Below, piece by piece: positions 29,245 through 53,729 of a DNA stretch of 64,000 nucleotides. Where the stretch lies: IMG/VR virus record IMGVR_UViG_3300046507_000371, positions 1 to 64,000 of that record; one strand, written 5' to 3'. The number at the start of each line of letters is the position of its first letter. Position 1 is the stretch's first letter. The DNA comes from a virus. The notes beneath the pieces are model-generated. The model did not search any database. It had not been told where the DNA came from and saw nothing but the letters and a program-made list of their open reading frames with translations. The position numbers and the translations under genes were made by a program.

Positions 29245-30606
29245 TTAGAGATTTACACGGTCTAGTTCGCCGTCAGCGAAACCATTGTAAACTGGGAATC
29301 TGATTTGACCGCCTGGAACGCTAGGAGGATATGCCTTAACTTGGATAAGCTTCTCATTGAACAGATCAGGAGTCTTCCAAGCATTGATACGAGTATCTCT
29401 ATCAAAGCCTGTTCCAACCTTACCAACCATTCTTCCTGAAGCATCCGCAAGAATCAACGCACCCATGCTGTCTTTGGGATTGCCTTTGATGTCGATTTCT
29501 TGTTGTTGACCAATTACCTTCAAGTTGTACGTTACGTAGTTCTTGACTTTGTATCGTACTGATTCTGTCTCTGGCTTAGCATAGTCTGCAACGATTAAGC
29601 CTTCTCCCTTTTGCTCTTTAATCCTGTCTAGATACTTGTTGATGTTCTCAACGCCGTGTTCTAGATGAGGAGAGAACAGAAGATCTGGCTCACCATAAGC
29701 TTGTTCGAATTTCTGAATGTATTCGACTTTATCTTTATACGTTGGCAGGTCTGGATTCTTAACATCGATAAGCACTGCACGAACTGGACCTTTTTCCGCC
29801 TGAGTTGCAATTGAACGTGGAGGAAGAGAATTCAGAATACCGGAAACAGTAGGGTGAGACTCCGTTTCAGACTTTGCAAGACCTGTATGTACAAGCTCTA
29901 CCGCAAATTGGTTTCCAGCAAATTCTGGCATCGGTTTAGCTAGGTGAGGAAGCTGTGCTGAACGCTCAGGAAATCCACCTTTTACGCTAGGTCTGCGGGA
30001 ATGATAAGTTAGAGAACCATCAGGCTGTACGGTAAGTACGAAGTGAGCACCATCCCACTTCTTTGAAGCTACAGGATGCTCAAGCTGAGTCCAATCTCCC
30101 TCTACGTATTTGTGACGAACGTAGGTATCGATTGAAGCTTGTTTTTGAATATGTTCGAGATATGGATTAATGCCTTCCACGAATAACTGGCTCCCAAGAG
30201 GACCGATCCCGCGAAATGATTGAATCTCTGCCCTGATTTCTTCAGGAGTCCGCTTGTCGATCAGATTACTAATTGTACCATATTTCTCTTTCAAATGTCT
30301 TGCTTGGGCAAGCATCGTCGTGGCAGTAGATTCGTCAAAACGACCGTAATGGCCTTGTACGAGATTATCACGAAGAGTTTCCCATCCAGCAGACTCCACG
30401 GCTTCAGGTGAGTGAAAACCCTGTGAAGCCATGTGTTTCGCAGCCATACCTGCTACTGAGCGCTGGATAGGTCTAGAAAAAAGAGTGACAGCCGTCATCC
30501 ACTTGTACAGTTCTTTCTCGTCGCCTTTAGACAAGTCAAAGCCAAGACTCTCTGGGCTAGCAGGTTCTTTAAGGTCTGTCGCTACTTTTTCTAGGTATTT
30601 ATTCAT
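29245..30606 (-). CDS. tagged HhH-domain/ATP-dependent DNA ligase fusion
   Basis: The 453-aa product begins with the tag M-N-K-Y-L-E-K-V-A. Residues 30-165 resemble an HhH-GPD (endonuclease III-like) domain with F-R-G-I-G-P-L-G at 131-138. An I-D-T-Y-V near 159-163 may hold the glycosylase Asp. Residues 178-453 are an ATP-dependent ligase: K-W-D-G (nucleotidyl Lys183), E237, E-G-L-I-V at 335-339, Y-K-V-K at 352-355, then an OB-fold (G-K-V-G-T-G-F). An I-Q-K-Q-A-S site at 153-158 resembles the K-x-A sites of the head proteins. Base excision plus sealing in one chain is inferred; a structural HhH role without glycosylase activity is the alternative. It overlaps the next gene by 4 bases. Confidence 0.85.
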   Translation of the reverse strand: MNKYLEKVATDLKEPASPESLGFDLSKGDEKELYKWMTAVTLFSRPIQRSVAGMAAKHMASQGFHSPEAVESAGWETLRDNLVQGHYGRFDESTATTMLAQARHLKEKYGTISNLIDKRTPEEIRAEIQSFRGIGPLGSQLFVEGINPYLEHIQKQASIDTYVRHKYVEGDWTQLEHPVASKKWDGAHFVLTVQPDGSLTYHSRRPSVKGGFPERSAQLPHLAKPMPEFAGNQFAVELVHTGLAKSETESHPTVSGILNSLPPRSIATQAEKGPVRAVLIDVKNPDLPTYKDKVEYIQKFEQAYGEPDLLFSPHLEHGVENINKYLDRIKEQKGEGLIVADYAKPETESVRYKVKNYVTYNLKVIGQQQEIDIKGNPKDSMGALILADASGRMVGKVGTGFDRDTRINAWKTPDLFNEKLIQVKAYPPSVPGGQIRFPVYNGFADGELDRVNL

Positions 30607-30989
30607 GTTTTACGACTTGCGTTAAGGTGACGCCACATTGTGTTATCTACTTTAACTTCCTCAGATTTTTGTTTATTGCCACCATGAGCGAGAAACGGGG
30701 CTAGAGCTAAACCTAAAGCTCCGCCTACAGCAGCTGTTCCAGCTGTAACTTTAGCAGTTCTTGCGGGATTTTTAAACCATTGTTTTCCTGCTGCTGTAGC
30801 TGCCGTAACTGCTCCAGTTGCTGCAAACCCTGCCGGAATAACAGCTAAGGCTTTAAGGTGATGATGATGGTCATTCTCTTTTGCAAACTGTTTCCTTACT
30901 TCTGGATCAGGCACATGGAAACGCCCATTATCATAGTGAATACCCTTAACGTATTCAAAAGCTATTTTTTCTAGATATTTGTTAGTCAT
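30603..30989 (-). CDS. tagged small membrane protein, 128 aa
   Basis: Begins M-T-N-K-Y-L-E-K-I-A, the shared tag. A polar His-rich segment (D-H-H-H-H) near residue 40 is followed by two Ala/Gly-rich hydrophobic helices at about 46-66 and 80-101. Its gene overlaps the ligase and helicase-fusion genes by 4 and 8 bases, so the three are translated together. A membrane-associated or DNA-ejection role in the packaged set is inferred. Confidence 0.75.
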   Translation of the reverse strand: MTNKYLEKIAFEYVKGIHYDNGRFHVPDPEVRKQFAKENDHHHHLKALAVIPAGFAATGAVTAATAAGKQWFKNPARTAKVTAGTAAVGGALGLALAPFLAHGGNKQKSEEVKVDNTMWRHLNASRKT

Positions 30990-32913
30990 TTTTCATCAAA
31001 CCTTTTACTTCATCAAACAACTCTTCCTTCGTATCTGAGTTTTCTGACAGATACTTGTCAATCGAGTACGGCGTCTTGCCCCATAGTGGCTTAGGGTGTA
31101 CGCTGTGGAAATGCTCAACTAATACTTTACGTTCTTCTTCTGGCAAGTGTGCATGTGAACCAAATCTAACTGCACGGCCTACTACTTGGTTAATCTTACT
31201 TGGGTTAAAGTGTGGCTCAAGTACCTGTACACGCTTCGTTCCCTTTGAATCCAGTCCTTCTGAACCTGAAGATGAGATCAACAGAATTTTCTTCCTACCA
31301 GAGTTGTAGTCCTTGACTAACTGGTCCTTCTCTGCTCTTGACAGTGAACCGTCATAGACAGCGTGGTCAATCTTCATTTCTTGAAGTTTTTTGGAGTAGT
31401 CTCTTAGTCCAGCATCAAGATAATTTGAATACACAAGGGCTTTGAAGTTCTTATCCTCCGACATACCCTTTTGGAGGCTCTCTACGGCTTTGAGAATCTT
31501 AGGTGAGTACTCAGCCTTACCGTCGCTTGTCAAATGCCTGTAGCCGTTAGAAACCTGCCTTACGCCTGTTGAGAAAGCATTGAGGTTAGCCTTTTCTTTC
31601 TTGTCCAGTGGTAGATTGTGACGGATCTTCATTCTCAGCAAGAACGGAATCTTACCTTCAGCGAACTTGTAATACTTCTGCTGCTCTTTGGACATCGGTA
31701 CTTCAACGATAGTCTCTGTCTTCTTCGGGAAATGCTTTGCTGCTTCCGGATCATCTTTGCTATCGTAGAAGCTTACGTACTGATTGAGAATTTCTTTAAG
31801 CTCTTTTCTACGGTCAAGTCTACGCACTGCTTCAGGCTTGGCTCCTAGAAGTCTATCTTTGAAGCCCGGCTTAATAATTTCTTCCTTCGTGTAACGATCA
31901 TCCATTTTCTTTGATTCTTCAGGAAGAACGTTATCATTGGCCGCAATGTTTACAAGAGCGGATATATCAGAGAGTTTATTGTAATTGCCAGTAGCAGTAG
32001 CAAGTAAACGACGATCAGCACCGCTGATAATATCTCGGAGTTCTCTAGTACGTTTAGTGTTCGTATTACGGAGCCTGTGAGCTTCGTCTGCAACTGCGAT
32101 AGAGTAATCATTTTTACGTAATTTGTGAGCATCAATAACAGCTTTCTCATAGGACATTACATCCAGTCGATCTCTGTCCAGTTTGATATTGTGTTTCTTG
32201 AGTTCCTTATCAACGTTCGTGACGAGACTGGCAGGAGCAATGACCAACGCCCGCTTCTTCGGGTACTTCTCTTGATAGCGACGTACTGCCTCAAGGAACG
32301 TCTTAGTCTTGCCGCTACCAAGGCTGTGATGAAGGACGACGCCGTGTTCTTTATCCAAATGATCAAGGGCATCAGTTTGGTGGGGACGTAGATCATCTTT
32401 CTGTTCCTTCTTCTTGGCAATTTTTTCTAGGTATACGTTACCACCAGCATAGTCGTCAAGCGCCCAAGCTCGTTTCTCAATAGAAGATTTGCGAGTTAAA
32501 TATGGGCTCGTACTCTTACCCATACCAGTAATGTTTCTGAGAATCCAAGATTTTTCGTTTTCTTTAGTCGGTGATTTCTTCAGCAAAAACTTCTCACCAT
32601 CTTTGGTGAAGATTACAAGCATAGTCTCTGTACTATGTGGAGCTACAACAGCTTTACGAACCCAATCTAAATACGTAGTTCCAGCACCGTATTGGCCTTT
32701 AGGGATTACTACCTTCTTGCTCAATGCGTAAGCACGATCATGTACAGGCTGTTCAAAGACGCCAATGATTTCGCCTGGCTTCGGCATATCTTTAAGCGTT
32801 GCAAAAGAATACGCCTTGTCCTTGTGGACAAGCCTGAGGTCATAATGAAGGCCCATGACATCAGCTTCGTGTCGTTGCCGGGTAAATAGAAATTCGTCGT
32901 TTGGTTGTAACAT
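30982..32913 (-). CDS. 3'-phosphoesterase/SF2 helicase fusion with internal tag
   Basis: The 643-aa product joins two DNA-repair modules. Residues 8-125 match the LigD-type 3'-phosphoesterase domain: R-H-E-A-D-V-M-G-L-H-Y-D-L-R-L (His15, His23, Asp25, Arg27), P-V-H-D near 58 and I-P-K-G-Q-Y-G-A-G at 70-78. This domain trims 3'-phosphate or ribonucleotide ends. Residues 175-643 are a superfamily 2 helicase with H-S-L-G-S-G-K-T at 196-203, DEAH at 276-279 and G-R-A-V-R-F-G motif VI. Between them, V-Y-L-E-K-I-A-K at 160-167 is an internal copy of the tag, possibly a cleavage site. No Ku gene is visible. Confidence 0.85.
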   Translation of the reverse strand: MLQPNDEFLFTRQRHEADVMGLHYDLRLVHKDKAYSFATLKDMPKPGEIIGVFEQPVHDRAYALSKKVVIPKGQYGAGTTYLDWVRKAVVAPHSTETMLVIFTKDGEKFLLKKSPTKENEKSWILRNITGMGKSTSPYLTRKSSIEKRAWALDDYAGGNVYLEKIAKKKEQKDDLRPHQTDALDHLDKEHGVVLHHSLGSGKTKTFLEAVRRYQEKYPKKRALVIAPASLVTNVDKELKKHNIKLDRDRLDVMSYEKAVIDAHKLRKNDYSIAVADEAHRLRNTNTKRTRELRDIISGADRRLLATATGNYNKLSDISALVNIAANDNVLPEESKKMDDRYTKEEIIKPGFKDRLLGAKPEAVRRLDRRKELKEILNQYVSFYDSKDDPEAAKHFPKKTETIVEVPMSKEQQKYYKFAEGKIPFLLRMKIRHNLPLDKKEKANLNAFSTGVRQVSNGYRHLTSDGKAEYSPKILKAVESLQKGMSEDKNFKALVYSNYLDAGLRDYSKKLQEMKIDHAVYDGSLSRAEKDQLVKDYNSGRKKILLISSSGSEGLDSKGTKRVQVLEPHFNPSKINQVVGRAVRFGSHAHLPEEERKVLVEHFHSVHPKPLWGKTPYSIDKYLSENSDTKEELFDEVKGLMKND

Positions 32914-35540: not shown

Positions 35541-36164
35541 ATGAAAACTTGCTGTAAATGTAAACTTGACTTAGATCTAAATTTTTTCAATAAAAACAAA
35601 TCGTACAAAGACGGACTCCATATAGAGTGCAAGGAGTGTAGACGAAAGTACAGAGAGTCTAGAAAAAACGAAATCGCTGAATACAATGCTGAGTATAGAC
35701 TTAGTATGCCGGAGACTCAGAGAGAAAAATATAGAGCTAGTCAAAGAAACTATTTGGAAAATTTACCTCCAGAAAAAATAGAATTTAGAAAAAAATATCT
35801 ACAAAATTACTTTAGAAATCTTTCTGAAGTTCAAAAACAAGAACGGTCTAAATATAGCAAATCGTATTTAAAAAACAATCTGCATAAACACGCTGCAGTA
35901 CAAGCTAAAAGAAGGGCCTTAAAAATTATGGCAACTCCAATATGGGCTAGCAAAGAAATAATTGATGATTATTATTTAAGGGCAACAGCTTGGTCAAAGC
36001 TATCCGGAGAAGAGTTCGAGGTAGACCATATAGTGCCTCTGAAATCAAATGTAGTATGCGGACTTCATTGTCAACAAAATTTGACAATTTTATCAAGATT
36101 CGAAAACTCTTCTAAGGGCAACCGTTGGTGGCCAGACATGCCGGAACCCGAACCGTTAAAATAG
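35541..36164 (+). CDS. HNH homing-type endonuclease
   Basis: The 207-aa product has an N-terminal zinc ribbon (C-C-K-C near residues 3-6 and C-x-x-C-R-R near 31-36), a long Lys/Arg-rich helix and a C-terminal HNH core. That core has F-E-V-D-H-I-V-P-L near residue 157, then C-G-L-H-C-x-x-N-L and N-x-S-K-G-N. Its AT-rich composition differs from the neighbouring genes, as expected of a mobile endonuclease. It lies directly before the beta-prime C-terminal gene, and its last codons overlap that gene's box B promoter. Confidence 0.88.
   Translation: MKTCCKCKLDLDLNFFNKNKSYKDGLHIECKECRRKYRESRKNEIAEYNAEYRLSMPETQREKYRASQRNYLENLPPEKIEFRKKYLQNYFRNLSEVQKQERSKYSKSYLKNNLHKHAAVQAKRRALKIMATPIWASKEIIDDYYLRATAWSKLSGEEFEVDHIVPLKSNVVCGLHCQQNLTILSRFENSSKGNRWWPDMPEPEPLK
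36155..36163 (+). promoter_or_regulatory. box B promoter (GTTAAAATA) embedded in the HNH stop region
   Basis: GTTAAAATA includes the HNH stop codon and lies 24 bases before the beta-prime C-terminal ATG. Confidence 0.6.
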
Positions 36165-36186: not shown

Positions 36187-38013
36187 ATGACAGAACGTTA
36201 CACAACAGCCGGTGCACTGAAGCTAAAGTCCGAACTACCTACTCAAGAAGCGCGGGATAACTATGACGTGTATCGCCCTCTTGACAAGAAAGCTATTTCA
36301 GATCTCGTCAATGTCCTTTTAAAGCATGGCGGTACAAATAGTCACGAGACTATAAATGATCTTGGTAAAAAGTTCTTCGATAAAGCTACGGCCATCGGTG
36401 CTACAACTCCGCTAACTGACTACATCAACGAAAGTGATGAGCGACAAGCTATTATCGATGAATTTGAAACAAAGGTTCATCAGATTTTTGCTAAGAAACT
36501 TCCAAAGACTAAAGAGAACGATGAGCTTGGCGCATTGACTGGCGAATACAACGGAAAAATTGAAAAGCAAAATTTGGACTATCTTCTTTCTAAAGGTTCT
36601 ACGGCCGCAAAAATGGCACGTACAGGAGCCCGAGGAAATCCAACTCAATTGGCTACTGGTACCTCAACTCCTTTGATGTCTATAAATTTGCGCGGTGAAC
36701 TTGTTCCTTATGTTATCAAGAGTTCATTCGCTAAAGGGATGTCTCCGTCTGAGATGCTTGCAATGAGCTATATGGGCCGTGGTTCTACCGTACTGTCCCA
36801 GCTTTCAACTGCTCTTCCTGGCGCTCTATTCAAAGAACTTTCTCCGACTACTTTTCATGAAGTAATCACGGTAGATGACTGCGGAACAACTAATGGTATT
36901 CTGCTTTCCATCACAGATAAGAAAGGTGCTATTGGCCGGTATGAGGCTGGCACTAATACTCTGATTGACGAACACTACTACAAAGAACTTGTTAATTCTG
37001 GCAAGAAGGGTATTAAGGCTCGTAGCTCACTTACATGTGAAGCTCATCAAGGCATTTGCAAAAAGTGCTATGGCCTAATGGCTAACGGTAAGCTTCCAGA
37101 AATTGGTGAAAACGTAGGTGTAATCGCTGCACAATCAGTTTCAGAAGTTCTTACGCAGTCGATGCTTTCAACCAAACACAAGGCGTCTGTTGGCGCTCGT
37201 AAAGGTAACTCATACGAACAAGCTTCAAACTTGCTTCGTAACCCTGCCGAGAACTTCAAAGACGAAGCAACGATCACGAATATCAATGGCGTAGTTTCAG
37301 CAATTAAACAAACGCCTCTTGGTGACCATCAAGTATTCGTTAATGAACAGATGCACTTCGTACCCAGAGTACAGGGCCTGAAAGTAGCTGTAGGCGATAA
37401 CGTCCTGAAGGGTGATGCTCTTTCAACTGGCGTTGTTAATCCTCGTAAACTGGTAGGCCTAAAGGGTCTAGGAGCCGGTCGTATTCACATGGCTCACGAA
37501 CTACGTGGTATCTACGGTTCAGACCTTGATCCACGTCACTTCGAGTTGATTGCAAAGAATCTTATCAAGCACGTAGAAGTGCAAGATCCAGGTGAGACAG
37601 GCTTTCTCCCAGGCCAGAAGATTGACGTAAACACAGTTCAGAAGTACCTTACGAACACCGCTGGTGAAGTATCTCTTGACAAGGCTGAAGGAAAGCTTCT
37701 TGCAAGAGGCGTTCATGAACTTACTGCTGGTACATTGCTAGATGGCAATCATATCAACGATCTCAAGAGCCACGGCGTTAAAACTGTTCACGTAGCCAAT
37801 ACTGGTCTGACAGTTACTCCGATTGTACCTGGTCTTAAGACAGCTAAGCTTCTTGATGACAACTGGGTTTCAAAACTCTCATTCTCAGGTCTTAAGAATA
37901 CGCTTCGTGAAAGCGCTGCAGTTGGTGCAGAATCAGATGTACACAGCACAGAGCCTATCACTCCATACATTCTTGGTAGTGAATTTGGTGAAGGTCCAGG
38001 AGGCCAATACTAA
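36187..38013 (+). CDS. rpoC: RNA polymerase beta-prime, C-terminal part
   Basis: The 608-aa product continues beta-prime: G-M-S-P-S-E-M-L-A-M-S near residue 186 (bridge helix/trigger loop region), V-D-D-C-G-T near 229, the second zinc site S-L-T-C...G-I-C-K-K-C-Y-G near 280-297, and the invariant G-V-I-A-A-Q-S near 312. The split from the N-terminal half falls after the catalytic D-F-D-G-D, as in other phages with split beta-prime. It is cotranscribed with the downstream transglycosylase gene (TAATG overlap). Confidence 0.93.
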   Translation: MTERYTTAGALKLKSELPTQEARDNYDVYRPLDKKAISDLVNVLLKHGGTNSHETINDLGKKFFDKATAIGATTPLTDYINESDERQAIIDEFETKVHQIFAKKLPKTKENDELGALTGEYNGKIEKQNLDYLLSKGSTAAKMARTGARGNPTQLATGTSTPLMSINLRGELVPYVIKSSFAKGMSPSEMLAMSYMGRGSTVLSQLSTALPGALFKELSPTTFHEVITVDDCGTTNGILLSITDKKGAIGRYEAGTNTLIDEHYYKELVNSGKKGIKARSSLTCEAHQGICKKCYGLMANGKLPEIGENVGVIAAQSVSEVLTQSMLSTKHKASVGARKGNSYEQASNLLRNPAENFKDEATITNINGVVSAIKQTPLGDHQVFVNEQMHFVPRVQGLKVAVGDNVLKGDALSTGVVNPRKLVGLKGLGAGRIHMAHELRGIYGSDLDPRHFELIAKNLIKHVEVQDPGETGFLPGQKIDVNTVQKYLTNTAGEVSLDKAEGKLLARGVHELTAGTLLDGNHINDLKSHGVKTVHVANTGLTVTPIVPGLKTAKLLDDNWVSKLSFSGLKNTLRESAAVGAESDVHSTEPITPYILGSEFGEGPGGQY

Positions 38014-41544: not shown

Positions 41545-41709
41545 ATGAACATATACCTAGAAAAAATAGCGTCTAAAAAGAAGGGTCAGCTTACGATGCG
41601 TAAAGGTCAAAAGGCTATTAAGCATCCCAAGAAGCCTTTTATATCCTTGTCAGCCAAGGTTAAAATAAAGTCACAGAATGGAGCCAAGAATGGCAAACGT
41701 AACCCCTGA
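41545..41709 (+). CDS. tagged basic peptide protein, 54 aa
   Basis: Read directly from the sequence: M-N-I-Y-L-E-K-I-A-S followed by a very basic tail with 16 further Lys/Arg. The tag matches the other packaged-type proteins, and the basic remainder could condense DNA, like T4 internal proteins. It overlaps the next gene's start by 20 bases, and that gene's box B promoter lies inside it. Confidence 0.75.
   Translation: MNIYLEKIASKKKGQLTMRKGQKAIKHPKKPFISLSAKVKIKSQNGAKNGKRNP
41659..41667 (+). promoter_or_regulatory. box B promoter (GTTAAAATA)
   Basis: Lies 23 bases before the start chosen for the core protein gene at 41690. Confidence 0.6.
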
Positions 41710-42772
41710 ACTTATTCGGGATATCTCAGTTCAAGCAGTTGAAGATTTCCTGAACAATAAAGTTCCTCTGAGCAAGGGCCTTGCTAAACAAGCAGCCGCT
41801 TACGAACTGAATGTAGAACAAGTGAAGCGTGCTGTTGAATCAACGAATAACATTGCTTATTTGAAGGTTCTTCAACATGCAGAAGACCGCACAGTAGAAT
41901 TCCCCCTAGCTAAGTTTGCTGAAGTAATGTCAGCAGCTACGATTCCTGAAGGTTTTCAAGAAAAAGTAGCACAAGTAAAAGCAGAAGAGCTTCAAGCAAA
42001 TCTTGAGAAAGAAGCTTCAAGCCACGAACTAGAATTAGTAGAAGCAGAGAAGCTCACATATCTTATAAAGTCAGCAGCAGCTAACAAAGAAGCTCTTGAT
42101 CGCCTAGAGATTGATGCTATCGTTTTAGCAGATACGCTTGTGAAGGCCGCAAAGGCTCTTAGCAAGGATGATGCATGGATGGATAAGCTGGCATGTGTCA
42201 CAGAAGAACAAACGTTCTCAGAGCTTTCTGTCCTCGTTTCTGGCGAAGTTAAAGCGTATCGTGATATTGGTGAGCTAGGTCTATTTAAATCAGCTCAGCT
42301 TAAAGAAGTAAATGCTTTTGCAGATCTGTACAAACAAGCTCGTGAACTTGTTCGTGAACAACGTGAGCGTTCTGGTCTTCAGAAACGCGCTGCTGATGCT
42401 GCGCAAGGTGTAAAATCAAACATGTTCACTAGGGCCATGAACGGAGCTGCAGCTTCTGCTAAGGTTACTGCTCAAAAAGCTAACCCGGCATACGCAGCAG
42501 GTAAGATAATCGGTACTGTAGCATCTTCTCCGATGAGAGTAGCAAAGGCAGTAGGCGGAGCTGTTAATAAGTCTGTTAAAGACAATCTTTCAGCACTTGG
42601 TAAACCCACCATAAAAAATACAGCAAAGGCTATCGGTAAGACTACAGTAAGCGCTGGTAAGTCTTTGTTTAATGCTGCTGGTCCTATAGCTGATGCAGCT
42701 TTCTATGATCCAGGTGTAGACAAGACAACCGGTAGAAGTAACGATGTCTGGAGCGCTCTCCAGCGTGATTAA
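41690..42772 (+). CDS. head core/scaffold-like protein with repeated K-x-A sites
   Basis: The start at 41690 (M-A-N-V-T-P-E-L) has a GGAG site; an ATG at 41678 lacks one. The 360-aa product is helical, with at least six sites of the type L-x-K-x-A: G-L-A-K-Q-A-A, N-L-E-K-E-A-S, L-I-K-S-A-A, L-V-K-A-A, L-Y-K-Q-A-R and G-L-Q-K-R-A-A. The last third is Ala/Lys/Gly-rich and basic, suited to DNA contact. A prohead core component processed by the protease encoded at 44489 is inferred. Confidence 0.72.
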   Translation: MANVTPELIRDISVQAVEDFLNNKVPLSKGLAKQAAAYELNVEQVKRAVESTNNIAYLKVLQHAEDRTVEFPLAKFAEVMSAATIPEGFQEKVAQVKAEELQANLEKEASSHELELVEAEKLTYLIKSAAANKEALDRLEIDAIVLADTLVKAAKALSKDDAWMDKLACVTEEQTFSELSVLVSGEVKAYRDIGELGLFKSAQLKEVNAFADLYKQARELVREQRERSGLQKRAADAAQGVKSNMFTRAMNGAAASAKVTAQKANPAYAAGKIIGTVASSPMRVAKAVGGAVNKSVKDNLSALGKPTIKNTAKAIGKTTVSAGKSLFNAAGPIADAAFYDPGVDKTTGRSNDVWSALQRD

Positions 42773-42800: not shown

Positions 42801-43349
42801 ATGTTAAATGAAGTTAAGCAAATGGGTCTTGAGAAGTTTGCTGGAGACGAAAAACTGGCTGATGAATTTCTAGCCGGTTTTGTTACGCATGTAATGCTTG
42901 AAAAAGAAGCTGCTGAAGAAGTTGAAAAACAAGCTAATGCTGCTCAATCCCGTGTTATGGGTCCAGGCGAAAGCGTTGCAAAGGGCTTTCTGGAACAAGC
43001 TGGTAAATCAGCAGGTGGACTTGCAGTAGGTACAGGTCTTTGGATGTTTTCAGGTGCAGCGAAGAGCGTAGTAGATCAATTTCGCTATAATCGCTTTAAG
43101 AAGGCTCTTCTACAAGCTATTTCAAACTCTCATATCCTTCAGACCGCTGAGCGTTCTAAGGTAGAGCATTACGCAGATACAATCTATAAGTTTGCACCTA
43201 TGGTTGCAACTGATCCTAATCTGCTACAATCTGTTCTTACCAACGCAGTTCATGGTGACGGCATTGATATTATGACTATCAAGAGTCTTACAGATCTAGA
43301 AGGTCGTTGGAAAGATAACAGTTCGTTCTCACCTAAGTCGTTCCTATAA
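42801..43349 (+). CDS. head core-associated protein, 182 aa
   Basis: Preceded by AAAGGAAC. The N-terminal 50 residues carry G-L-E-K-F-A-G, M-L-E-K-E-A-A and V-E-K-Q-A-N sites like other core proteins. A central hydrophobic helix (A-G-G-L-A-V-G-T-G-L-W-M-F) and a conserved-looking helical C-terminal domain follow. It lies among tagged genes ahead of the protease gene. Likely a capsid-internal protein trimmed at its N-terminus (inference). Confidence 0.7.
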   Translation: MLNEVKQMGLEKFAGDEKLADEFLAGFVTHVMLEKEAAEEVEKQANAAQSRVMGPGESVAKGFLEQAGKSAGGLAVGTGLWMFSGAAKSVVDQFRYNRFKKALLQAISNSHILQTAERSKVEHYADTIYKFAPMVATDPNLLQSVLTNAVHGDGIDIMTIKSLTDLEGRWKDNSSFSPKSFL

Positions 43350-43351: not shown

Positions 43352-43666
43352 ATGAATAAGTACCTAGAGAAAATCGCATCCGCAAAAGCTGTAGCTGAAT
43401 CCATAACTGGTTTCGGCAAAAGTTTTGCGAAGGGCTGGAAACGAAGCTCAACAACTTCTAAAGTTGGTCTGGGTATGTCTGCTGCCGGTCTCTCTCTAGG
43501 CGCTGCTAATTATAGTAATAGCCTAGAGAATAAGCTTGACAATAAAAAACGTGGCGTACTTGAGGCGCAATCGCTGAACGAGCTTAAGGGTATTTCAGAG
43601 GCTCTTAGGAAAAAGCCTAAGGTAACCGTAAATCTGAAATTAGTCCCTGACCAAAATGCAAAATAA
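43352..43666 (+). CDS. tagged protein, 104 aa
   Basis: Begins M-N-K-Y-L-E-K-I-A-S. The rest is basic with a short Ala/Gly/Leu hydrophobic stretch near residues 47-62. It overlaps the next tagged gene by 11 bases. A packaged internal protein is inferred. Confidence 0.78.
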   Translation: MNKYLEKIASAKAVAESITGFGKSFAKGWKRSSTTSKVGLGMSAAGLSLGAANYSNSLENKLDNKKRGVLEAQSLNELKGISEALRKKPKVTVNLKLVPDQNAK

Positions 43667-44465
43667 GTATTTAGAAAAAATAGCATCAGACAAGAACAAA
43701 GATAAGTCTAAAGTTGTTTCAGCAGTAGGAGCCTCCTTGCTTGGAGGCTTTTCTGCGGGAGTAGCCGGTGGTGCCCTACAGCATGCAGTATCTAGAAAAG
43801 TTGTATCTGCAATATCAGCTTCTCACAGCGATTCTGGAGCAGATCACCACACCCTTAGAAAGTTTATGAAAGATAATGGTTTACATAAAACCACTACTTT
43901 CAATACTAGAAAGCACAATGTAGATAAAATGACTTTTTCAAAGAATCCTTTGGGAAAGATTTATAAACACTTAGCTAGTAATGACGCTCCTGGACCTGCG
44001 TTTCTACGTACCAGAGGGGTAGGTGCTCAAAAAGACTTTGTAGTAGGATTAAGAAATGGTGGAAAGACTGTTAAGAACGCTGACGTTCTAATGCATGAAC
44101 TTGGCCACGCCAAAGACTTCCAAAGTTACGGAAAGCTTAAAGCGTTGGCTCCAATTGCCAAAATGCCCGGAGTAAGTAGTGTTGCTACCATTGCAGCTCT
44201 TTCAAATGACAAGACTCGTGATTACGCTCCAGCCGTTGCAGCTATTCCTGGCGCACTAACTTTAAGAGAAGAAGCTGCTGCTAATTACCATGCATACAAA
44301 GGAATTAAAGCCCACAAGGGAGCTGCCGCTGCTAATAAGTATGTACGCAAGCTTCTACCTTCGCAAATGGGCTCTTATGCTGTTGGGGCTGCAATCCCAG
44401 TAGCCGGTGCATATCTTGCCAAGAAAATTATGGACAAGTGGCATCCGAAGAAAGAGTCAAAATAA
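43656..44465 (+). CDS. tagged zinc metallopeptidase-like protein
   Basis: The 269-aa product begins M-Q-N-K-Y-L-E-K-I-A-S. It has a Gly/Ala-rich hydrophobic segment near residues 23-42, the zinc motif H-E-L-G-H at 147-151 and a downstream R-E-E-A-A-A-N-Y near 212 that could give the third zinc ligand. If packaged and injected it would be an early host-acting protease, by analogy with injected enzymes of T4. Its substrate is unknown, and activity rests on the motif only. Confidence 0.75.
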   Translation: MQNKYLEKIASDKNKDKSKVVSAVGASLLGGFSAGVAGGALQHAVSRKVVSAISASHSDSGADHHTLRKFMKDNGLHKTTTFNTRKHNVDKMTFSKNPLGKIYKHLASNDAPGPAFLRTRGVGAQKDFVVGLRNGGKTVKNADVLMHELGHAKDFQSYGKLKALAPIAKMPGVSSVATIAALSNDKTRDYAPAVAAIPGALTLREEAAANYHAYKGIKAHKGAAAANKYVRKLLPSQMGSYAVGAAIPVAGAYLAKKIMDKWHPKKESK

Positions 44466-44488: not shown

Positions 44489-46003
44489 ATGCTAACTAAA
44501 CTAATCGATACGTCTTCTTTTTACCGTGAAGAACCACAGGTAACTATTCTCGATCCCAAAGATCTTACAGGCAGTCTTATTAAGCAGGCTACGGATTCTC
44601 GCATTCAAGAATTCGCTTCTAAACTAACGCCCATTCAGGGCAAGACGTATCTTCACATTCTAGCTATGGGTGCTGGAGAGTTTTATGGTGCAAACCGTAA
44701 TGCTGACTACTTCCCAGAAAGTAGCCTCATTGATTACCACAATACCTTTGAGACTGCTCCTGCCCATATTTTCAGAAACCACGTAAACAAAAATCCCGAA
44801 ATCGCTATTGGTCAAGTTGTGTACTCTGTCTACAACGACAGAATGCACCGCGTTGAGCTTATCGCTGAGCTTTGGAACGACAAGGCTCCAGACATCGTTG
44901 ATCGTATCGAAAGCGGTGACTGGCCAAAGACTTCAATGGCTTGCCGTACACCTTTCGATGTTTGTTCAATTTGTGGTAACAAAGCTCGTACCCGTGAAGA
45001 GTATTGTGAGCATCTAAGCGAACAGTTGGGTAAGGTTTTCCCTGATGGTCGTAAGGTAATGGCGCTTAACTTGGCTCCATTGCGATTCTTCGACATCTCT
45101 ATTGTATTTCGTCCAGCAGACGTAACTAGCGCAGTTCTACAGAAAGTAGCATCTGAAAGCGAAGTGATTGGTTCAGTGGATGAGGCGCTAATGGCTGGTC
45201 TAAATGACCTTCCGTTACAGAAGAGTGCTACTCTTAAAAAGCTTTCAGAATTAACGAAGGAGATTGATGGCGATGTTGTATCTATCGATTCTAATCTTGA
45301 TAATCTTGTATCACGAGTTAGTGATCCGCAAGGATCGGTTATCGATGTTCTTCGAAATTATAAGCTTAATGAGACTTTTAGTACCTTTGCTCATCTTGGC
45401 ATTAGCCCTTCGATTGGTTTTCTCGCTGAACTGATTGCTAGAAAATTGATGGGTGAAGAAGGGCGCGGCATTGGCCCAATGGCTGCTGCATATTTTGATA
45501 AGGTTGGTCTTACTGCTATTCCCGAATTCGACCGTGATTTCGGTGAAATTACAGAACCCAACATCGGTATCGTTCATGCTATGCTTCCTCATATGCAGGA
45601 TGCCTCGTATCTTCCACAGTATGTTGAGGAACGTGTATCGCTGAACAAACAGGCTTCGACTTACGGTTATGTACAGGGTACTAATGTTGGCTTTGTCGGC
45701 AACGGTCCTCACATCGAACCTACGATTTACGAAAAGTTCCGTGAACAGAATCTCAAGTCAGAAGAAGGGAATAAGTCAAGTTTGATGAAGATGCTTACTG
45801 CCATTGCTGCTATCGGCGGAGCTGCTCTAGCTGCTAAGTGGTACATTACCCAAGCAATAGAGCGGAAAATGAAAGAGCAAGAATTGAACAAGGCTTCAGA
45901 TGGTGTTAAAATAGTTTTAGTTAAATCTGCTTCTGACTATAAGCTGACTTACAAACTCGCCAAAACAGCGATGGTTAAGTTGGTTCAGAAGAAAAAGAAT
46001 TGA
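44489..46003 (+). CDS. prohead protease with long C-terminal extension
   Basis: The 504-aa product matches the HK97/herpes-type prohead protease fold: F-R-N-H-V...I-A-I-G-Q-V with His98, a Ser149 candidate in K-T-S-M-A, and the closing F-D-I-S-I-V-F-R-P-A-D block near 201-211. An inserted Cys/His cluster (C-S-I-C at 159-162 and C-E-H at 173-175) could bind zinc. The 290-residue extension contains V-L-Q-K-V-A-S (217-222), L-Q-K-S-A-T (243-248) and L-V-K-S-A-S sites, likely self-cleavage points. Such proteases mature scaffold and capsid proteins inside the prohead. Confidence 0.8.
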   Translation: MLTKLIDTSSFYREEPQVTILDPKDLTGSLIKQATDSRIQEFASKLTPIQGKTYLHILAMGAGEFYGANRNADYFPESSLIDYHNTFETAPAHIFRNHVNKNPEIAIGQVVYSVYNDRMHRVELIAELWNDKAPDIVDRIESGDWPKTSMACRTPFDVCSICGNKARTREEYCEHLSEQLGKVFPDGRKVMALNLAPLRFFDISIVFRPADVTSAVLQKVASESEVIGSVDEALMAGLNDLPLQKSATLKKLSELTKEIDGDVVSIDSNLDNLVSRVSDPQGSVIDVLRNYKLNETFSTFAHLGISPSIGFLAELIARKLMGEEGRGIGPMAAAYFDKVGLTAIPEFDRDFGEITEPNIGIVHAMLPHMQDASYLPQYVEERVSLNKQASTYGYVQGTNVGFVGNGPHIEPTIYEKFREQNLKSEEGNKSSLMKMLTAIAAIGGAALAAKWYITQAIERKMKEQELNKASDGVKIVLVKSASDYKLTYKLAKTAMVKLVQKKKN

Positions 46004-46061: not shown

Positions 46062-46925
46062 ATGATGAGTTTCACTCTAGACGGTCTTCTTAATGATCTG
46101 CAAAAAGAAGCTGGCCTCCATAAAGTAGCTAGTGAAGATACAGAGAAAGAAGAAAAGAAAGATGAAGATAAGGCAGAAAAGGCTATCGACAAAGCTGACA
46201 AAGATGTAAAGGAAGCTAAGGAAGAAGTCAAGGACGCCAAAGAGAAGAACGATGCTGATGAACGTGTCAAAGAAGCTGCGGCTAAAGGCGCTGACTTAGC
46301 AAAAGAAGTAATGCAAAAAGTTGCATCCATTAAACTTGATCAAGTTAAACCAGAGGATACTATGAACAAACAAGCTGCTGACGCAGGCAAGGCACTAGCC
46401 GAAGCTCTTCTTGAAAAGCTGGCTTCAGTAGGTGACCAAAATACCGTTAACGGTATTGGTAATGCTGTACCGAACAAGACACAACAAGATCTTGCAGCTC
46501 AAGTAGCTGAACAAGATGCTATCATCCAGAACCAACCCGGCACAGACGGCAAGGGTAATGGTGGTACAATCAACCAAATCTTCGACGCAATCGTTGCTGA
46601 CGCAATGGCTCGTGGAGCTGCTCCAGTTGATCAAAATCCTGCTCCTGGCATTGCTAAGGATGAAGGCGCACAAATCGGTGCACAAGCTCCTAACCAAGTT
46701 CAAACTGGTGGTTGGGTAACGGCTGGTCAAGAAAAGGCTGCTGCAGTTTCATCACTCGTTGAGCAAGGCTTTGAATTTGACGATGCAGTAAACATGGTCA
46801 AGGAAGCTGCTGAAGAAATCGAACGTGAAGAAGCTTCACAAGTTAAGCAAGCTGCACTGTCACACTTCATCGAAGCTGGCTTCGATTTTGACACCGCAGT
46901 AAACTTGGTAAAAAAGCTGGGCTAA
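46062..46925 (+). CDS. head core/scaffold protein, zero-frame product (287 aa)
   Basis: The product has a Lys/Glu-rich coiled coil (about residues 25-75) and many K-x-A sites (L-Q-K-E-A, M-Q-K-V-A-S, M-N-K-Q-A-A, L-E-K-L-A-S, V-K-Q-A-A). Two copies of a helical repeat of the form L-x-x-x-G-F-x-F-D-x-A-V-x-x-V-K follow near its C-terminus. It lies directly after the prohead protease gene, typical for a scaffold or core protein. An A AAA AAG slippery site four codons before the stop allows a longer -1 frame product (see next entry). Confidence 0.78.
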   Translation: MMSFTLDGLLNDLQKEAGLHKVASEDTEKEEKKDEDKAEKAIDKADKDVKEAKEEVKDAKEKNDADERVKEAAAKGADLAKEVMQKVASIKLDQVKPEDTMNKQAADAGKALAEALLEKLASVGDQNTVNGIGNAVPNKTQQDLAAQVAEQDAIIQNQPGTDGKGNGGTINQIFDAIVADAMARGAAPVDQNPAPGIAKDEGAQIGAQAPNQVQTGGWVTAGQEKAAAVSSLVEQGFEFDDAVNMVKEAAEEIEREEASQVKQAALSHFIEAGFDFDTAVNLVKKLG

Positions 46926-47536: not shown

Positions 47537-47962
47537 ATGAACAAATATCTTGAAAAAATCGCTAGTCTTAATTTTGACATGGACACTCAAGGTCGCATCA
47601 AATCGGCTGGTATGATTGTCAAGAAAGATGTAAGCCTAGGGAAAGTAAAAGAACCAGCGCCTATTACGGCACCTGGTTCAAAACTGATACGGGGAGCTAA
47701 GACTCTCTTTACCAGAGCGTTGTATAAAGCTGCGCAGGATTTAACACATAAACAAGAGCTGGTCAACACTGGCGTAATCGCTGGTTTGGGCACAGCTACA
47801 GGCTTTGGTGCTCATAAGCTGATGAACTCTATGCCTAAGGTATTCGGGCAAGGTGCCAAACTTCACAACGCTAAAATTATGGCGTTAAGTGGAGCAGCTG
47901 GTTTAGCAGCAGACTATGCTGGTGTTAAACTAAATAAACAGATTAACAAACATGTCCAATAA
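47537..47962 (+). CDS. tagged protein, 141 aa
   Basis: Begins M-N-K-Y-L-E-K-I-A-S. Its first 29 bases are identical to those of the tagged gene at 53466, though the proteins then diverge. A possible hydrophobic hairpin (V-I-A-G-L-G-T-A-T-G-F-G-A and L-S-G-A-A-G-L-A-A-D-Y-A-G-V) lies in the C-terminal half. Packaged internal protein inferred. Confidence 0.76.
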   Translation: MNKYLEKIASLNFDMDTQGRIKSAGMIVKKDVSLGKVKEPAPITAPGSKLIRGAKTLFTRALYKAAQDLTHKQELVNTGVIAGLGTATGFGAHKLMNSMPKVFGQGAKLHNAKIMALSGAAGLAADYAGVKLNKQINKHVQ

Positions 47963-48443
47963 GTACTTAGAGAAAGTTGCTTCCATATTTCCAAGCAAAG
48001 AATATAGAAAGACTTTACATGGAAGAGAAAAAGCTAACTACGATGTAGAATACGCTACTGCTGGCAGATCTAGTCTTAAAAACTTTGGAAAAACTCTTCT
48101 GGGTATCGGAGCAATAGGCTTAGGTGCTGGGTTTGGGCATCATGGCGGAGCTACTCTCGGTGGTAAAATCGGAGCCAAGATTGGAGCCAAGCAAGGAAAG
48201 AAATTTGGTGCTGAGGCATATAAGAGTCTTATGGCAGGTGGTAGAACTCCAGAGCGTGAAGCTAAAGGCTTTGCAGTGTATGCCCATGACATGATTAAAC
48301 AGAAGACTCAAAATGCAGGTAGGGCTGTAGGCGGTGTTGTCGGAGGTACGGCAGGCATGATTCCGGGAATAGCTTACGCTGATAACTTCAGACACAACCA
48401 CGCTAAGAGCGTAATCGAGAAAAGACGTAAACAAAATGACTAA
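47952..48443 (+). CDS. tagged protein with Gly-rich membrane-like region, 163 aa
   Basis: Begins M-S-N-K-Y-L-E-K-V-A-S and overlaps its neighbours by 11 and 8 bases. Two Gly/Ala-rich stretches (L-G-I-G-A-I-G-L-G-A-G-F-G and A-V-G-G-V-V-G-G-T-A-G-M-I-P-G) resemble membrane-active segments. The N-terminal 45 residues are basic. A role in DNA ejection or membrane passage is possible. Confidence 0.74.
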   Translation: MSNKYLEKVASIFPSKEYRKTLHGREKANYDVEYATAGRSSLKNFGKTLLGIGAIGLGAGFGHHGGATLGGKIGAKIGAKQGKKFGAEAYKSLMAGGRTPEREAKGFAVYAHDMIKQKTQNAGRAVGGVVGGTAGMIPGIAYADNFRHNHAKSVIEKRRKQND

Positions 48444-49035
48444 ACTATCAACAATCCTCAAAGACCACGCTGAAACAGTTCGTCTTGCAACTCCCGAAGC
48501 TGTTGCTATCGAACATCTTAAGCAAGCTGGTTTTAGCGATGCAGATGCTCGTTATCAAGTAGCTCAACATATCATGGAAAAAGAGGCTACGTCAGCTCTA
48601 GCTATGAAGGGCGTTGATCATGAAGAAGCTGTAAAGCTTGTTAAAGCAGCAAACATTAACGTTGCTGAACTTTCAAACTTCGTTCTTGAAGTAGATGAAA
48701 ATCCAACGGTTGAACTTCTGCACAAGACAGCTGAATACGTTGATGCTCTAGAAGCCCAAATCGAAGGCCTGAAGGCTGAGATTGAGAAGCAGGCTACCGA
48801 ACATCAAGTCGCACTCGACAGGGCTCTAGAAGTGCCTGTAGAGATGCCTGAGCAAATCACTAAGCTGGCTTCTGCCGCTCAGTTCACACAAGAAGATCTG
48901 GAACAACTCCAACGAGTCTCTCCTGAAGTTCTTCAGAAGGTTGCATCTGCAATGGATGAACCGTGGGGAATGGGTAATGGCGTAGGCTTTGCTCGTCCTA
49001 AGACTGATCCCCTTCTTGAATTCATGCTGAGCTAA
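48436..49035 (+). CDS. scaffolding-like protein with K-x-A sites, 199 aa
   Basis: Directly upstream of the decoration and capsid genes, the usual scaffold position. It has a coiled coil around residues 95-135, two copies of the G-F/V-D-x-x-x-A-V-x-L-V helical repeat, and sites M-E-K-E-A-T, I-E-K-Q-A-T, I-T-K-L-A-S and L-Q-K-V-A-S. The C-terminus (P-W-G-M-G-N...L-L-E-F-M-L-S) could be the capsid-binding end. Removal by the prohead protease is inferred. Confidence 0.75.
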   Translation: MTKLSTILKDHAETVRLATPEAVAIEHLKQAGFSDADARYQVAQHIMEKEATSALAMKGVDHEEAVKLVKAANINVAELSNFVLEVDENPTVELLHKTAEYVDALEAQIEGLKAEIEKQATEHQVALDRALEVPVEMPEQITKLASAAQFTQEDLEQLQRVSPEVLQKVASAMDEPWGMGNGVGFARPKTDPLLEFMLS

Positions 49036-49613: not shown

Positions 49614-50507
49614 ATGAGCGCATATAACACAGAAACCGTAAACGTACAATTCCTGAATCAATCTTTCCTAGACAAGATTGACCAAGGTCACACCAAAGAA
49701 GCTTCAGCTGCAATGTCAGCTTTCGTACGTCAGAAGCTTCGTGAAGACGGCTTTACCCGTAAGATTCTTACGCCAGTTCAAATCACAGCTTCAGAGCTTG
49801 ATCGCCAACTGACCGAAGAACCAACGGTTATCGTTGAAAAGGAACCTGATTCAGTAGCTGCTACTGCTCCTTTCCTTGGCCGTCCGGAAATCCGTTACTG
49901 GAAGACACAACGTTACCCAGTTACATTCCAGAAGATCCAATCAGCTGACTTCCGTAAGAGCAAGTTCGAACTCGCTACATACCGTACCGACATTCGTACT
50001 ATCCTTCAAGAAAACAGCGTTAAGGATATTCAAGAACAAGAAGACGTAAACTTCTATCAAAACATCAACGCTATTGCTACAGCAAACAGCAACGTTCACA
50101 CCATCGCTGGTGGCTTTACAAAGGCTAACCTGATGGCTGGTATCAAGTTCATGCTTCTGAACAAGCTACCTGTTGGTTGTATCCTTATGACACAATCAAT
50201 GTACGCTGACCTGCTGACTTTTGCAGCAACAGACGTAGGCTCACCGGCAGCATCAGCACTGTTCCAAGGCGAAGCGACTCTTGATAACTTCTTCGGTTAC
50301 AAGATCATCACCACGAACAAGGCTAACATCCTCCCGACGAACCAAGCAATCGTTTTTGCTCCTCAGAACTACCTCGGTCAGTTCTATGAGCTTCAAGCTC
50401 CGACAGTCTTCCTGAAGACCGAAGCAGACATTATCGAGTTCCATACTTACGAAGCTGTAGGTGCTGGTATCGGTAACGTAAATGGTGCAGTTGTTCTAAA
50501 CTTCTAA
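49614..50507 (+). CDS. probable major capsid protein
   Basis: The 297-aa product lies directly after protease, scaffold and decoration genes and has the mixed alpha/beta layout and end (A-V-G-A-G-I-G-N-V-N-G-A-V-V-L) typical of HK97-fold capsid proteins. A K-E-A-S site near residue 28 could be the maturation cleavage point. Ribosome site AGGAAA. Codon use is biased as in a highly expressed gene. A 3' region complementary to the 16S rRNA tail and a terminator follow. Confidence 0.75.
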   Translation: MSAYNTETVNVQFLNQSFLDKIDQGHTKEASAAMSAFVRQKLREDGFTRKILTPVQITASELDRQLTEEPTVIVEKEPDSVAATAPFLGRPEIRYWKTQRYPVTFQKIQSADFRKSKFELATYRTDIRTILQENSVKDIQEQEDVNFYQNINAIATANSNVHTIAGGFTKANLMAGIKFMLLNKLPVGCILMTQSMYADLLTFAATDVGSPAASALFQGEATLDNFFGYKIITTNKANILPTNQAIVFAPQNYLGQFYELQAPTVFLKTEADIIEFHTYEAVGAGIGNVNGAVVLNF

Positions 50508-51988: not shown

Positions 51989-52070
51989 CATATCCTCCAA
52001 AGAGGTATAGCTCGGAAATCCGCAAGAACTCCAGAATTGCTTCGGTCATAGTTTCTTCTTCTAGTAACAC
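51975..52070 (-). CDS. small acidic protein, 31 aa
   Basis: GTG 52070 has GAGG six bases upstream; an internal ATG at codon 8 is the alternative. First gene of a four-gene operon of very small proteins after the box A promoter at 52097. Confidence 0.45.
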   Translation of the reverse strand: MLLEEETMTEAILEFLRISELYLFGGYDENK

Positions 52071-52096
52071 GATAAACCTCTATTGTTATTACTCTC

Positions 52097-52106
52097 CTTA
52101 TACCAA
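52097..52106 (-). promoter_or_regulatory. box A promoter (TTGGTATAAG)
   Basis: Exact box, divergent from the box B promoter at 52139 on the other strand. Confidence 0.7.
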
Positions 52107-52138
52107 TCTGAAGCTTGATGTATTACTTCTCTATCTCT

Positions 52139-52147
52139 GTTAAAATA
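52139..52147 (+). promoter_or_regulatory. box B promoter (CTGTTAAAATA)
   Basis: Lies 28 bases before the gene at 52175, with AAAAGGAAA as ribosome site between. Confidence 0.65.
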
Positions 52148-52174
52148 CTCTTTGTAAATTAAAAGGAAACCAAC

Positions 52175-52492
52175 ATGGCAGGTAGTTTTAACAGATACCT
52201 ATCCAAGACCCTCAAAATGATCGATCAAGTGTCGGGGAAGAGCGCAAAGGAATGGGCTACTAAGGCTCGTGTAATGCGCGAGGCTGAGGATACGGGACTT
52301 ACAGCTCTTCGTGCTAAACGCAAAGCACAAGTAGAAGCTGGCCGTACATTCCAGACAAGAGTAAAGGTCGGAGTTGGTGGAGCAGCAGCTGTAGGTACAG
52401 GCATGTTTGGAGTACACAAGTACTTCCAGCACCAAGATCGTAAGATCATGGAAAAAATTGACAAACTGTACGGACAGAAATACAATACTTGA
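52175..52492 (+). CDS. hypothetical virion-region protein, 105 aa
   Basis: Basic helical protein with one Gly/Ala/Val-rich hydrophobic segment (V-G-V-G-G-A-A-A-V-G-T-G-M-F-G-V) near residues 65-80. It opens the neck operon. Function unknown; a small structural or ejection protein is possible. Confidence 0.65.
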   Translation: MAGSFNRYLSKTLKMIDQVSGKSAKEWATKARVMREAEDTGLTALRAKRKAQVEAGRTFQTRVKVGVGGAAAVGTGMFGVHKYFQHQDRKIMEKIDKLYGQKYNT

Positions 52493-52512
52493 ATCTAAGA
52501 AAGGATTAGCAA

Positions 52513-52959
52513 ATGTCTAAAGTAGTTTTTAAAAATTTTTATCTGGTCAATAAGCTTCCGACCGGTCTTGTACTGAAAGCAGGGTATATCTCTATCAAGC
52601 AAGGCTCGTTCGTTAAGATTCTTGAATCAGATTTAGAACACCAAGATGTTCTTGATGCAGTAAATCGTGGTTGGGCAGAAGTTCACTCAGAAGAGCCTGA
52701 TGTCAGCGATCTAGTCAAGGCACCTGAACTGGTTGTAGAGCACGAAGGTTATCAAGGTATGACGGCTGAAGAACTGAAGGCTTCAAAGACTCCGGAAAAG
52801 AAGAGCACAGCAACTTCAGAGTCAATTGGCAAGAATACCGATGTAGTAGAAAAAGTATCAGAAGCAGCAGCTTCACAGATCGGTCAAACCGCTGAAGAAG
52901 CAAATGGCGTAGCAGAAACAGAGAAGGCTAAGCGTGGTCGTAAGGCTGCAGCAGAGTAA
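52513..52959 (+). CDS. hypothetical protein, 148 aa, disordered C-terminus
   Basis: AAAGGA precedes ATG. Residues 1-60 form a small beta domain. The rest is Glu/Ala/Lys-rich and ends in K-A-K-R-G-R-K-A-A-A-E, a basic AT-hook-like patch. It lies between neck-region genes; no family is recognised. Confidence 0.65.
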   Translation: MSKVVFKNFYLVNKLPTGLVLKAGYISIKQGSFVKILESDLEHQDVLDAVNRGWAEVHSEEPDVSDLVKAPELVVEHEGYQGMTAEELKASKTPEKKSTATSESIGKNTDVVEKVSEAAASQIGQTAEEANGVAETEKAKRGRKAAAE

Positions 52960-52963
52960 ATAA

Positions 52964-53407
52964 ATGTCCGTTAATCAAATCCTCACCCCGCAAGAAGTAA
53001 GAGAGTATACGTCAGACTATGCTGTCAACAATTACCTTATCGAAGGTGAGGAAATGACTGACACGTTTATTTCACTCTCTATGACACTAGCAGTGGATTC
53101 GTTTAATACGATTCCGCCAATTGGTGCAGTAGGAATTCAAAACTTCCCATCCAAATCAGTTCTTCTGTGGGGAACTCTTTGGCATGCATACCTCGGTAAA
53201 GCGTTGCTCCTAGCTCGTAATACTATGAACTACAGCGACGGCGGGCTTCAGATTCCAATCGAAGAACGTTCGCAGTTGTATCAGAGTCTAGCAGCAGGTT
53301 TTCAGCAACAGTTTACCGAAGCAGCTACAAAGCTAAAGATTCAGTTGAACATGGAAAGTGGTTGGGGAGAAGTACGAAGCGACCTCTCGCTTATGCCAAC
53401 TTGGTAA
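52964..53407 (+). CDS. head completion/neck-like protein, 147 aa
   Basis: Starts 4 bases after the upstream stop. The all-helical product begins with a T-P-Q-E-V-R-E-Y-T-S-D-Y-A segment and ends L-S-L-M-P-T-W. Size and position between capsid and sheath genes fit a head-tail connector, but this is inferred from context. Confidence 0.55.
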   Translation: MSVNQILTPQEVREYTSDYAVNNYLIEGEEMTDTFISLSMTLAVDSFNTIPPIGAVGIQNFPSKSVLLWGTLWHAYLGKALLLARNTMNYSDGGLQIPIEERSQLYQSLAAGFQQQFTEAATKLKIQLNMESGWGEVRSDLSLMPTW

Positions 53408-53427
53408 TCAAACACAGTTCCAAACAA

Positions 53428-53448
53428 GGCCTCCTTCGGGAGGCTTTT
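53428..53448 (+). terminator. rho-independent terminator
   Basis: GCCTCC ttcg GGAGGC followed by a T-rich run, after the stop at 53407. Confidence 0.8.
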
Positions 53449-53452
53449 GCTT

Positions 53453-53460
53453 TTAAAATA
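53453..53460 (+). promoter_or_regulatory. box B promoter (TTTTAAAATA)
   Basis: Ends 5 bases before the ATG of the tagged gene at 53466, so a nearly leaderless mRNA is predicted, as for the protease gene. Confidence 0.5.
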
Positions 53461-53465
53461 CTGTC

Positions 53466-53729
53466 ATGAACAAATATCTTGAAAAAATCGCTAGCGGTGG
53501 TAATCTTGAAATCATTATGGATTTAACTCATAAACATTTTGATTCAAGTATGAAACCAGATCATGCTTTCTTTCCTAAGAACCGTGAAAATAAGGCTGCT
53601 ACAACAATAGCTGGTAAAAAGTTGGTCGCAGCTATAGAAAGTAGATTCGGTAAAATCAATCCCGGTGATCATCACAAACTCACTACTCCGCGTAAAGTAG
53701 CTGAGTACTTTAAAAACAATACGCCCTAA
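53466..53729 (+). CDS. tagged protein, 87 aa
   Basis: Begins M-N-K-Y-L-E-K-I-A-S and shares its first 29 bases exactly with the gene at 47537. The remainder is soluble, with two His-rich spots (T-H-K-H-F near residue 23 and D-H-H-K near 68). It lies 3 bases before a neck/tail gene. Packaged internal protein inferred. Confidence 0.76.
   Translation: MNKYLEKIASGGNLEIIMDLTHKHFDSSMKPDHAFFPKNRENKAATTIAGKKLVAAIESRFGKINPGDHHKLTTPRKVAEYFKNNTP

Follow-up and report, generated by a model that had tools for sequence, protein, structure and literature searches.

Eight genes in a 64,000-nucleotide stretch of an IMG/VR virus contig of 181,435 bases (this stretch is here called the window) begin with the peptide M-x(0,1)-N-[K/I]-Y-L-E-K-[I/V]-A (strict consensus). 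This shared N-terminus very probably acts as a removable capsid-targeting sequence, N-x-Y-L-E-K-I-A, that loads cargo into the phage head. The N-x-Y part would bind scaffold or core proteins, or the protease, during prohead assembly, so that any protein bearing this part becomes trapped inside. After closure of the shell, the head protease encoded at 44489-46003 would cut after the Ala of L-x-K-x-A, shredding the scaffold and core proteins, trimming the arm of the capsid protein, trimming itself, and taking off the tag; for the product of gene 43352, the predicted mature N-terminus is SAKAVAESITGFGK. In fused genes, the K-x-A sites that precede and terminate each internal tag would allow the polyprotein to be cut into separate cargo. 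Mature cargo would then lie free among the packaged DNA and be ejected with it into the next cell. We infer these steps of binding, cleavage after Ala, encapsidation, and ejection from sequence comparisons. The capsid-targeting reading, which had been proposed in a preliminary description of this DNA, is favored by the location of the tagged genes in the head block, an enriched motif at the end of the tag, paired motif sites in fused proteins, basic cargo, and homologues in the virions of Salmonella phage Arash.

Table 1. Tags and candidate head genes in the window (hxKxA, number of motifs observed, with the number expected in brackets).
Feature	Coordinates	Strand	Remarks
Portal protein	18706..20604	+	phrog_16240, phrog_2739; 45% identical to Arash gp204; start of head block
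Tag MNKYLEKVA	30580..30606	-	N-terminus of ATP-dependent DNA ligase, gene 29245-30606
Tag MTNKYLEKIA	30960..30989	-	N-terminus of 128-aa basic protein, gene 30603-30989
Internal tag NVYLEKIA	32416..32439	-	Joint of LigD-type phosphoesterase and SNF2-like helicase, ORF 30982-32913
Tag MNIYLEKIA	41545..41571	+	54-aa very basic protein, gene 41545-41709
Core protein candidate	41678..42772	+	hxKxA 10 (3.0)
Core protein candidate	42801..43349	+	hxKxA 5 (0.85)
Tag MNKYLEKIA	43352..43378	+	104-aa protein, gene 43352-43666
Tag MQNKYLEKIA	43656..43685	+	269-aa protein with HELGH metalloprotease-like motif, gene 43656-44465
Head maturation (prohead) protease candidate	44489..46003	+	phrog_18299, E=6e-7; invariant H98, S149
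Scaffold/core protein candidate	46062..46925	+	hxKxA 7 (2.3)
Tag MNKYLEKIA	47537..47563	+	141-aa protein, gene 47537-47962
Tag MSNKYLEKVA	47952..47981	+	163-aa glycine-rich basic protein, gene 47952-48443
Scaffold/core protein candidate	48436..49035	+	hxKxA 7 (1.0)
Major capsid protein	49614..50507	+	phrog_2522, E=4.6e-14; conserved K-E-A in N-arm at 49695-49703
Tag MNKYLEKIA	53466..53492	+	87-aa protein, gene 53466-53729

Sequence and distribution of the tag

All eight shared N-termini are present at the genes named in the preliminary description, two of which (29245 and 30603) lie on the minus strand and carry their tags at the high-coordinate end (Table 1). The peptide had been written there as M-(x)-N-K-Y-L-E-K-I-A-S; the core up to Ala stands, but the final Ser falls outside the consensus, as Thr and Phe also occupy this position in the window and nearly any residue does so in relatives, and gene 41545 has N-I-Y instead of N-K-Y. 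A motif search of the kind suggested in that description, extended over the whole contig and its relatives and to internal copies, recovers the eight N-terminal copies together with a ninth, internal one (G-N-V-Y-L-E-K-I-A), no additional copy in the other 117 kb of the contig, and 20 positive contigs. With a looser pattern, these 20 contigs of the clade hold 2-9 copies each, and the reversed pattern has no match across 22 records. A protein encoded at 52175-52492 starts with MAGSFNRYLSKTLKMI, in which a tag-like N-x-Y-L-x-K is present and the final Ala is missing; this N-terminus may be a tag that has decayed or is not cleaved.

Written as a degenerate pattern of 26 bases, MNKYLEKIA matches 51 stretches in IMG/VR, but bacterial and archaeal genomes totalling 257 Gb yield a single match, which is apparently accidental. 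The major capsid protein is present on 18 of the 22 tag-bearing contigs at 55-98% identity, and the remaining four are shorter contigs of 36-47 kb without a capsid-protein match. The tag pattern has no copy in Arash or in Vibrio phage D69, and a search for other shared N-terminal peptides in these two phages and in more distant relatives found none. In a tree of the capsid protein, the sequences from tagged contigs group together, and Arash and D69 fall either within or next to this group. The peptide strings were likewise not found in the open-access papers searched.

Were the shared 5′ ends a spreading DNA cassette or a translation leader, selected as RNA or DNA, the 29 identical bases with which 47537 and 53466 begin would be readily accommodated. 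This identity, from which the preliminary description concluded that the tag also spreads as a DNA module, is real, but the claim of spread draws on the sole pair of this kind, which is perhaps a recent copy. Same-peptide tag pairs in the window differ at a mean of 4.27 of 24 bases, versus 4.26 expected with independent codon choice, and there are 57 DNA encodings among the 63 genes with an exact NKYLEKIA start. Codon differences are at the level of random choice, and selection therefore acts on the peptide, in agreement with what the synonymous codons had originally suggested. Internal copies also keep the peptide despite synonymous changes, as in a related contig (AACGTATACCTAGAAAAAATTGC versus AACGTATATCTAGAAAAGATTGC). 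A cassette or leader is exceedingly improbable as the source of the shared ends, and a tag acting as an RNA or DNA element is rejected on the codon data.

The motif at the end of the tag

Residue pairs at spacings of 1-6 were tested for over-representation against within-protein shuffles, with pair and spacing left free (2400 combinations). In a core set of five proteins (41678, 42801, 44489, 46062, and 48436), chosen because K-x-A had been seen there by eye, K-x-A ranks first and L-x-K second of the 2400, with z of 6.7 and 6.4, and the largest z in 400 shuffles of this set is 4.4. Applied to the same five orthologues, the test ranks K-x-A first or second in each relative that has the complete set, the untagged Arash and D69 among them, and between first and fifth in four more distant contigs that hold one or two of these proteins. 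As a positive control, T4 gp68, gp21, and gp22 yielded I-x-E at rank 1 and L-x-E at rank 2, which is the known gp21 specificity; neither pair was recovered from the T4 shell proteins by the same test.

The logo over 467 sites reads [L/M]-[E/V]-K-[Q/E/V]-A-[S/A/G], which the tag's L-E-K-I-A-(S) fits. None of 304 core L/M/I-x-K-x-A sites is preceded by N-x-Y, and the tag therefore consists of the motif plus an N-x-Y that is confined to tags. In the candidate protease, the motif takes the form LQKVA (45137-45151), directly behind the catalytic region that contains the invariant H98 and S149; K219 and A221 are invariant in 13 sequences down to 28% identity. The K-E-A in the capsid N-arm is conserved in all aligned rows and is followed by Gly or Ser in nearly all. 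Assignment of the protease is based on its profile match, the invariant His and Ser, and its position by the scaffold and capsid genes; an AlphaFold model was poor (pLDDT 56), and its best Foldseek match in the PDB (E=1.1) indicates no significant fold match. Protease homologues in L090, L092, and L095 show that the K-x-A behind the domain is invariant in far more distant phages as well, and remote matches occur in mycobacterium, gordonia, and rhodococcus phages. The motif may be shared by a phage group far wider than the one that has the tag.

Similar sites are found in fused proteins. In the window, the helicase is joined to a LigD-type 3′-phosphoesterase with the tag retained at the joint; its counterpart in L044, L017, and L042 is encoded separately and starts with MNKYLEKIA. 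A second K-x-A lies within 16 residues before 14 of the 16 internal tags (2.2 expected), for which P is about 1e-11 in a calculation that ignores relatedness and includes some orthologues, so that the true weight is less. A cut at this upstream K-x-A would leave, for example, SNRYLEKIA..., which resembles a tagged protein without its Met. An I-D-K-Q-A link connects the HELGH protein of L045 to a further domain, whose homologue in L017 is free-standing and starts with MTNKYLTKIA. An open frame of 396 aa with three internal tag copies (L082:8220-9410) is a candidate cargo polyprotein.

On these comparisons, the tag looks like a peptide that ends in a site of the phage's own head protease. Cleavage after Ala is suggested by the enrichment, and the cut could fall elsewhere in the motif. 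L-x-K-x-A might instead be an uncut docking motif that binds one partner, such as the portal, the protease, or a packaged RNA polymerase, in which case the tag would load cargo and stay on. The enrichment in itself proves only that the motif is important in core proteins, and Arash virions are rich in RNA polymerase subunits, both of which suit docking. Nevertheless, docking seems unlikely, given that the same statistic recovers a proven cleavage motif in T4 and that an invariant copy of the motif borders the protease domain on its C-terminal side, where the phiKZ and SPN3US proteases cleave themselves (PMC5694885), C-terminal self-cleavage being described for SPN3US gp245 (PMC5694885). The occurrence of the motif in the capsid N-arm, the K-x-A pairs that flank the units of fused proteins, and the K-Q-A kept in the L045 fusion where the tag of the free-standing homologue ends also argue for cleavage over docking.

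Tagged proteins and the head-gene block

With the tag left out of the comparison, the 102 distinct tagged genes (collected with small variation of the tag allowed) form 40 families, which bears out the initial impression that the tagged proteins are unrelated. Information content is 4.3 bits at the Ala and 1.1 bits at the next residue, conservation ending exactly after Ala. The mature proteins are basic, with a median pI of 10.1 in tagged proteins versus 5.4 in other window proteins (p=4e-5), and of 99 tagged genes, 90% have a pI above 8.5; the ligase, with a pI of 6.4, departs from this pattern. Recognizable members comprise the ATP-dependent DNA ligase (29245-30606; phrog_114, E=4.8e-19), SNF2-like helicases, the HELGH protein, and glycine-zipper proteins. 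The cargo had been described as including DNA-repair enzymes and a protease. The first part is reasonable in view of the ligase and of the LigD-type phosphoesterase/SNF2-like helicase, but the second refers to the 43656 product, which is metalloprotease-like by its HExxH motif only, a HELGH that is also conserved in a tagged relative in L045. A search of named phages for homologues of the window ligase or of the metalloprotease-like gene gave no useful match.

Tagged proteins in L023, L035, L039, L077, L033, and L049 carry a YHG[T/S] motif and show weak Pfam similarity to PARP/Tpt1, with sub-threshold matches in three of the four members of the L023, L035, L039, and L077 group. For this group of four, no PDB profile matched, and a structure model (pLDDT 40) was of no use. 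The YHG[T/S] proteins are possibly, and tentatively, packaged ADP-ribosyltransferases; T4 Alt is a packaged ADP-ribosyltransferase.

The tagged genes sit among the portal, protease, scaffold, and major capsid genes. The order 38875-40853-41678-42801-protease-46062-48436-capsid is conserved in relatives and in Arash, and the tagged genes are the changing inserts within it. An RNA polymerase region occupies 20895-24296, 27234-28403, and 36187-38013. Arash gp206, an RNA polymerase of 1525 aa that is the most abundant virion protein, is a single gene in Arash; its counterpart is split into two window genes that match residues 1-1142 and 1147-1524, with tail-fibre-like genes between them. In L015, a tagged polyprotein gene of 633 aa lies at the gp206 break point. 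Homing-endonuclease-like genes (35541-36164 and 57983-58801; HNH-like and GIY-YIG-like by eye) are inserted in the head/tail region, and similar ones occur in relatives.

The published virion proteome of Arash (PMC10585845) contains homologues of two tagged families, gp217 (1148 spectra; 39-41% identical to the tagged helicases) and gp96 (816 spectra; 32% identical to a tagged protein, E=2e-13), and of one K-x-A-flanked domain, gp100 (471 spectra), whose first residues are MEKQAS and which corresponds to the stretch that follows the phosphoesterase K-Q-A. Because 116 of the 252 proteins are listed and some coverage values are odd (100% with 2 peptides), presence in this proteome is moderate evidence. 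None of the three carries the NKYLEKIA tag, and gp217 starts directly with its own domain. Arash packages the helicase gp217 and the RNA polymerase untagged, and other loading routes therefore exist.

A signal for localization unrelated to the head, such as to a membrane, a replication compartment, or a host complex, could also be shared by late proteins, as a peptide alone proves no destination and glycine-zipper or glycine-rich stretches occur in many of the tagged proteins. Such a role is very improbable, however, considering the location of the tagged genes among head genes, the identity of the tag's last five residues with the scaffold/protease motif, and the presence of the Arash homologues in virions; moreover, the peptide is short, charged, and unlike a signal peptide.

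If head loading is the function of the tag, then a single transferable address peptide may well serve the whole clade as an open system for cargo. N-K-Y-L-E-K-I-A would direct the product of any gene acquiring it into the head, fused polyproteins included; an Ala-directed protease would cut these inside the prohead at paired K-x-A sites, and dozens of effectors (DNA-repair enzymes and ADP-ribosyltransferase-like, metalloprotease-like, and membrane-active proteins) would be swapped in and out. Cargo genes could thereby be recruited and fused, yet still be packaged and processed. The tag would make it possible to recognize, from sequence and without proteomics, the head cargo of an uncultured clade of large tailed phages, and would provide a short loading-and-release signal usable for protein delivery. 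It would also predict a head-protease specificity, after Ala in L-x-K-x-A, that is absent from the open-access literature searched. The pair test, validated on T4, may find the head-protease motifs of other phages from genome sequence alone.

Comparison with known systems

T4 is, to our knowledge, essentially the one phage in which capsid-targeting tags have been characterized in detail; P1 and the phiKZ group add isolated cases. The nearest named relatives of the tagged phages are Arash (‘Arashvirus’) and Vibrio phages D69, D148, and D181, with 50-55% identity in the capsid protein and 46-47% in the protease. They share the core gene order and the K-x-A enrichment, whereas Arash and D69 are without a tag copy.

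DarB of P1 has an N-terminal segment, 30 residues of which suffice, that directs both DarB and a reporter into the head (PMC9024508). In contrast to the tagged proteins, the Dar proteins share no sequence. The cleavage of the P1 capsid protein was considered as a second K-x-A case and was rejected, as the cut falls after M-L-E.

The phiKZ and SPN3US system (protease gp175 and gp245, respectively) is similar in that a head protease matures many internal proteins and a multi-subunit RNA polymerase is packaged, as in Arash, and two SPN3US proteins have an identical N-terminus of 15 residues (PMC5694885). It differs in that propeptides are mostly longer than 100 residues and are cut after A/S-x-E, and no common short tag is present on dozens of proteins.

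The capsid-targeting sequence (CTS) of T4 IPI, IPII, IPIII, and Alt offers the closest functional parallel. The head proteases of T4, phiKZ, and SPN3US all cut after Glu (PMC5694885, PMC9026906), and in T4 IPIII the CTS comprises the first 10 residues, of which positions 4 and 7 matter for targeting and 8 and 10 for processing (PMC9026906). Several differences separate the two systems: L-x-K-x-A is the predicted site here, as opposed to (L/I)-x-E for gp21; one phage carries eight tagged genes, and tagged families number 40 across the clade; internal tags occur in fused polyproteins, with a ligase and a helicase among the cargo; and the tagged phage type has its own multi-subunit RNA polymerase. 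In both, a peptide of about 10 residues stands at the N-terminus of otherwise unlike, basic proteins (pI 9.3 and 9.5 for IPII and IPIII), has a Tyr at position 4, which T4 mutants show to be important for targeting (PMC9026906), and ends in the motif of the head protease (known in T4, predicted here), which is over-represented in scaffold and core proteins as well. The position-by-position likeness noted in the preliminary description is confirmed by the T4 record, in which ipII and ipIII start with MKTYQEFIAEA, M1, Y4, E6, I8, and A9 being identical. Five identical positions out of nine, with no Glu at the cut position, do not establish descent from the T4 CTS, homology being beyond demonstration on 10 residues; the proposed function of the tag nonetheless fits the CTS class.
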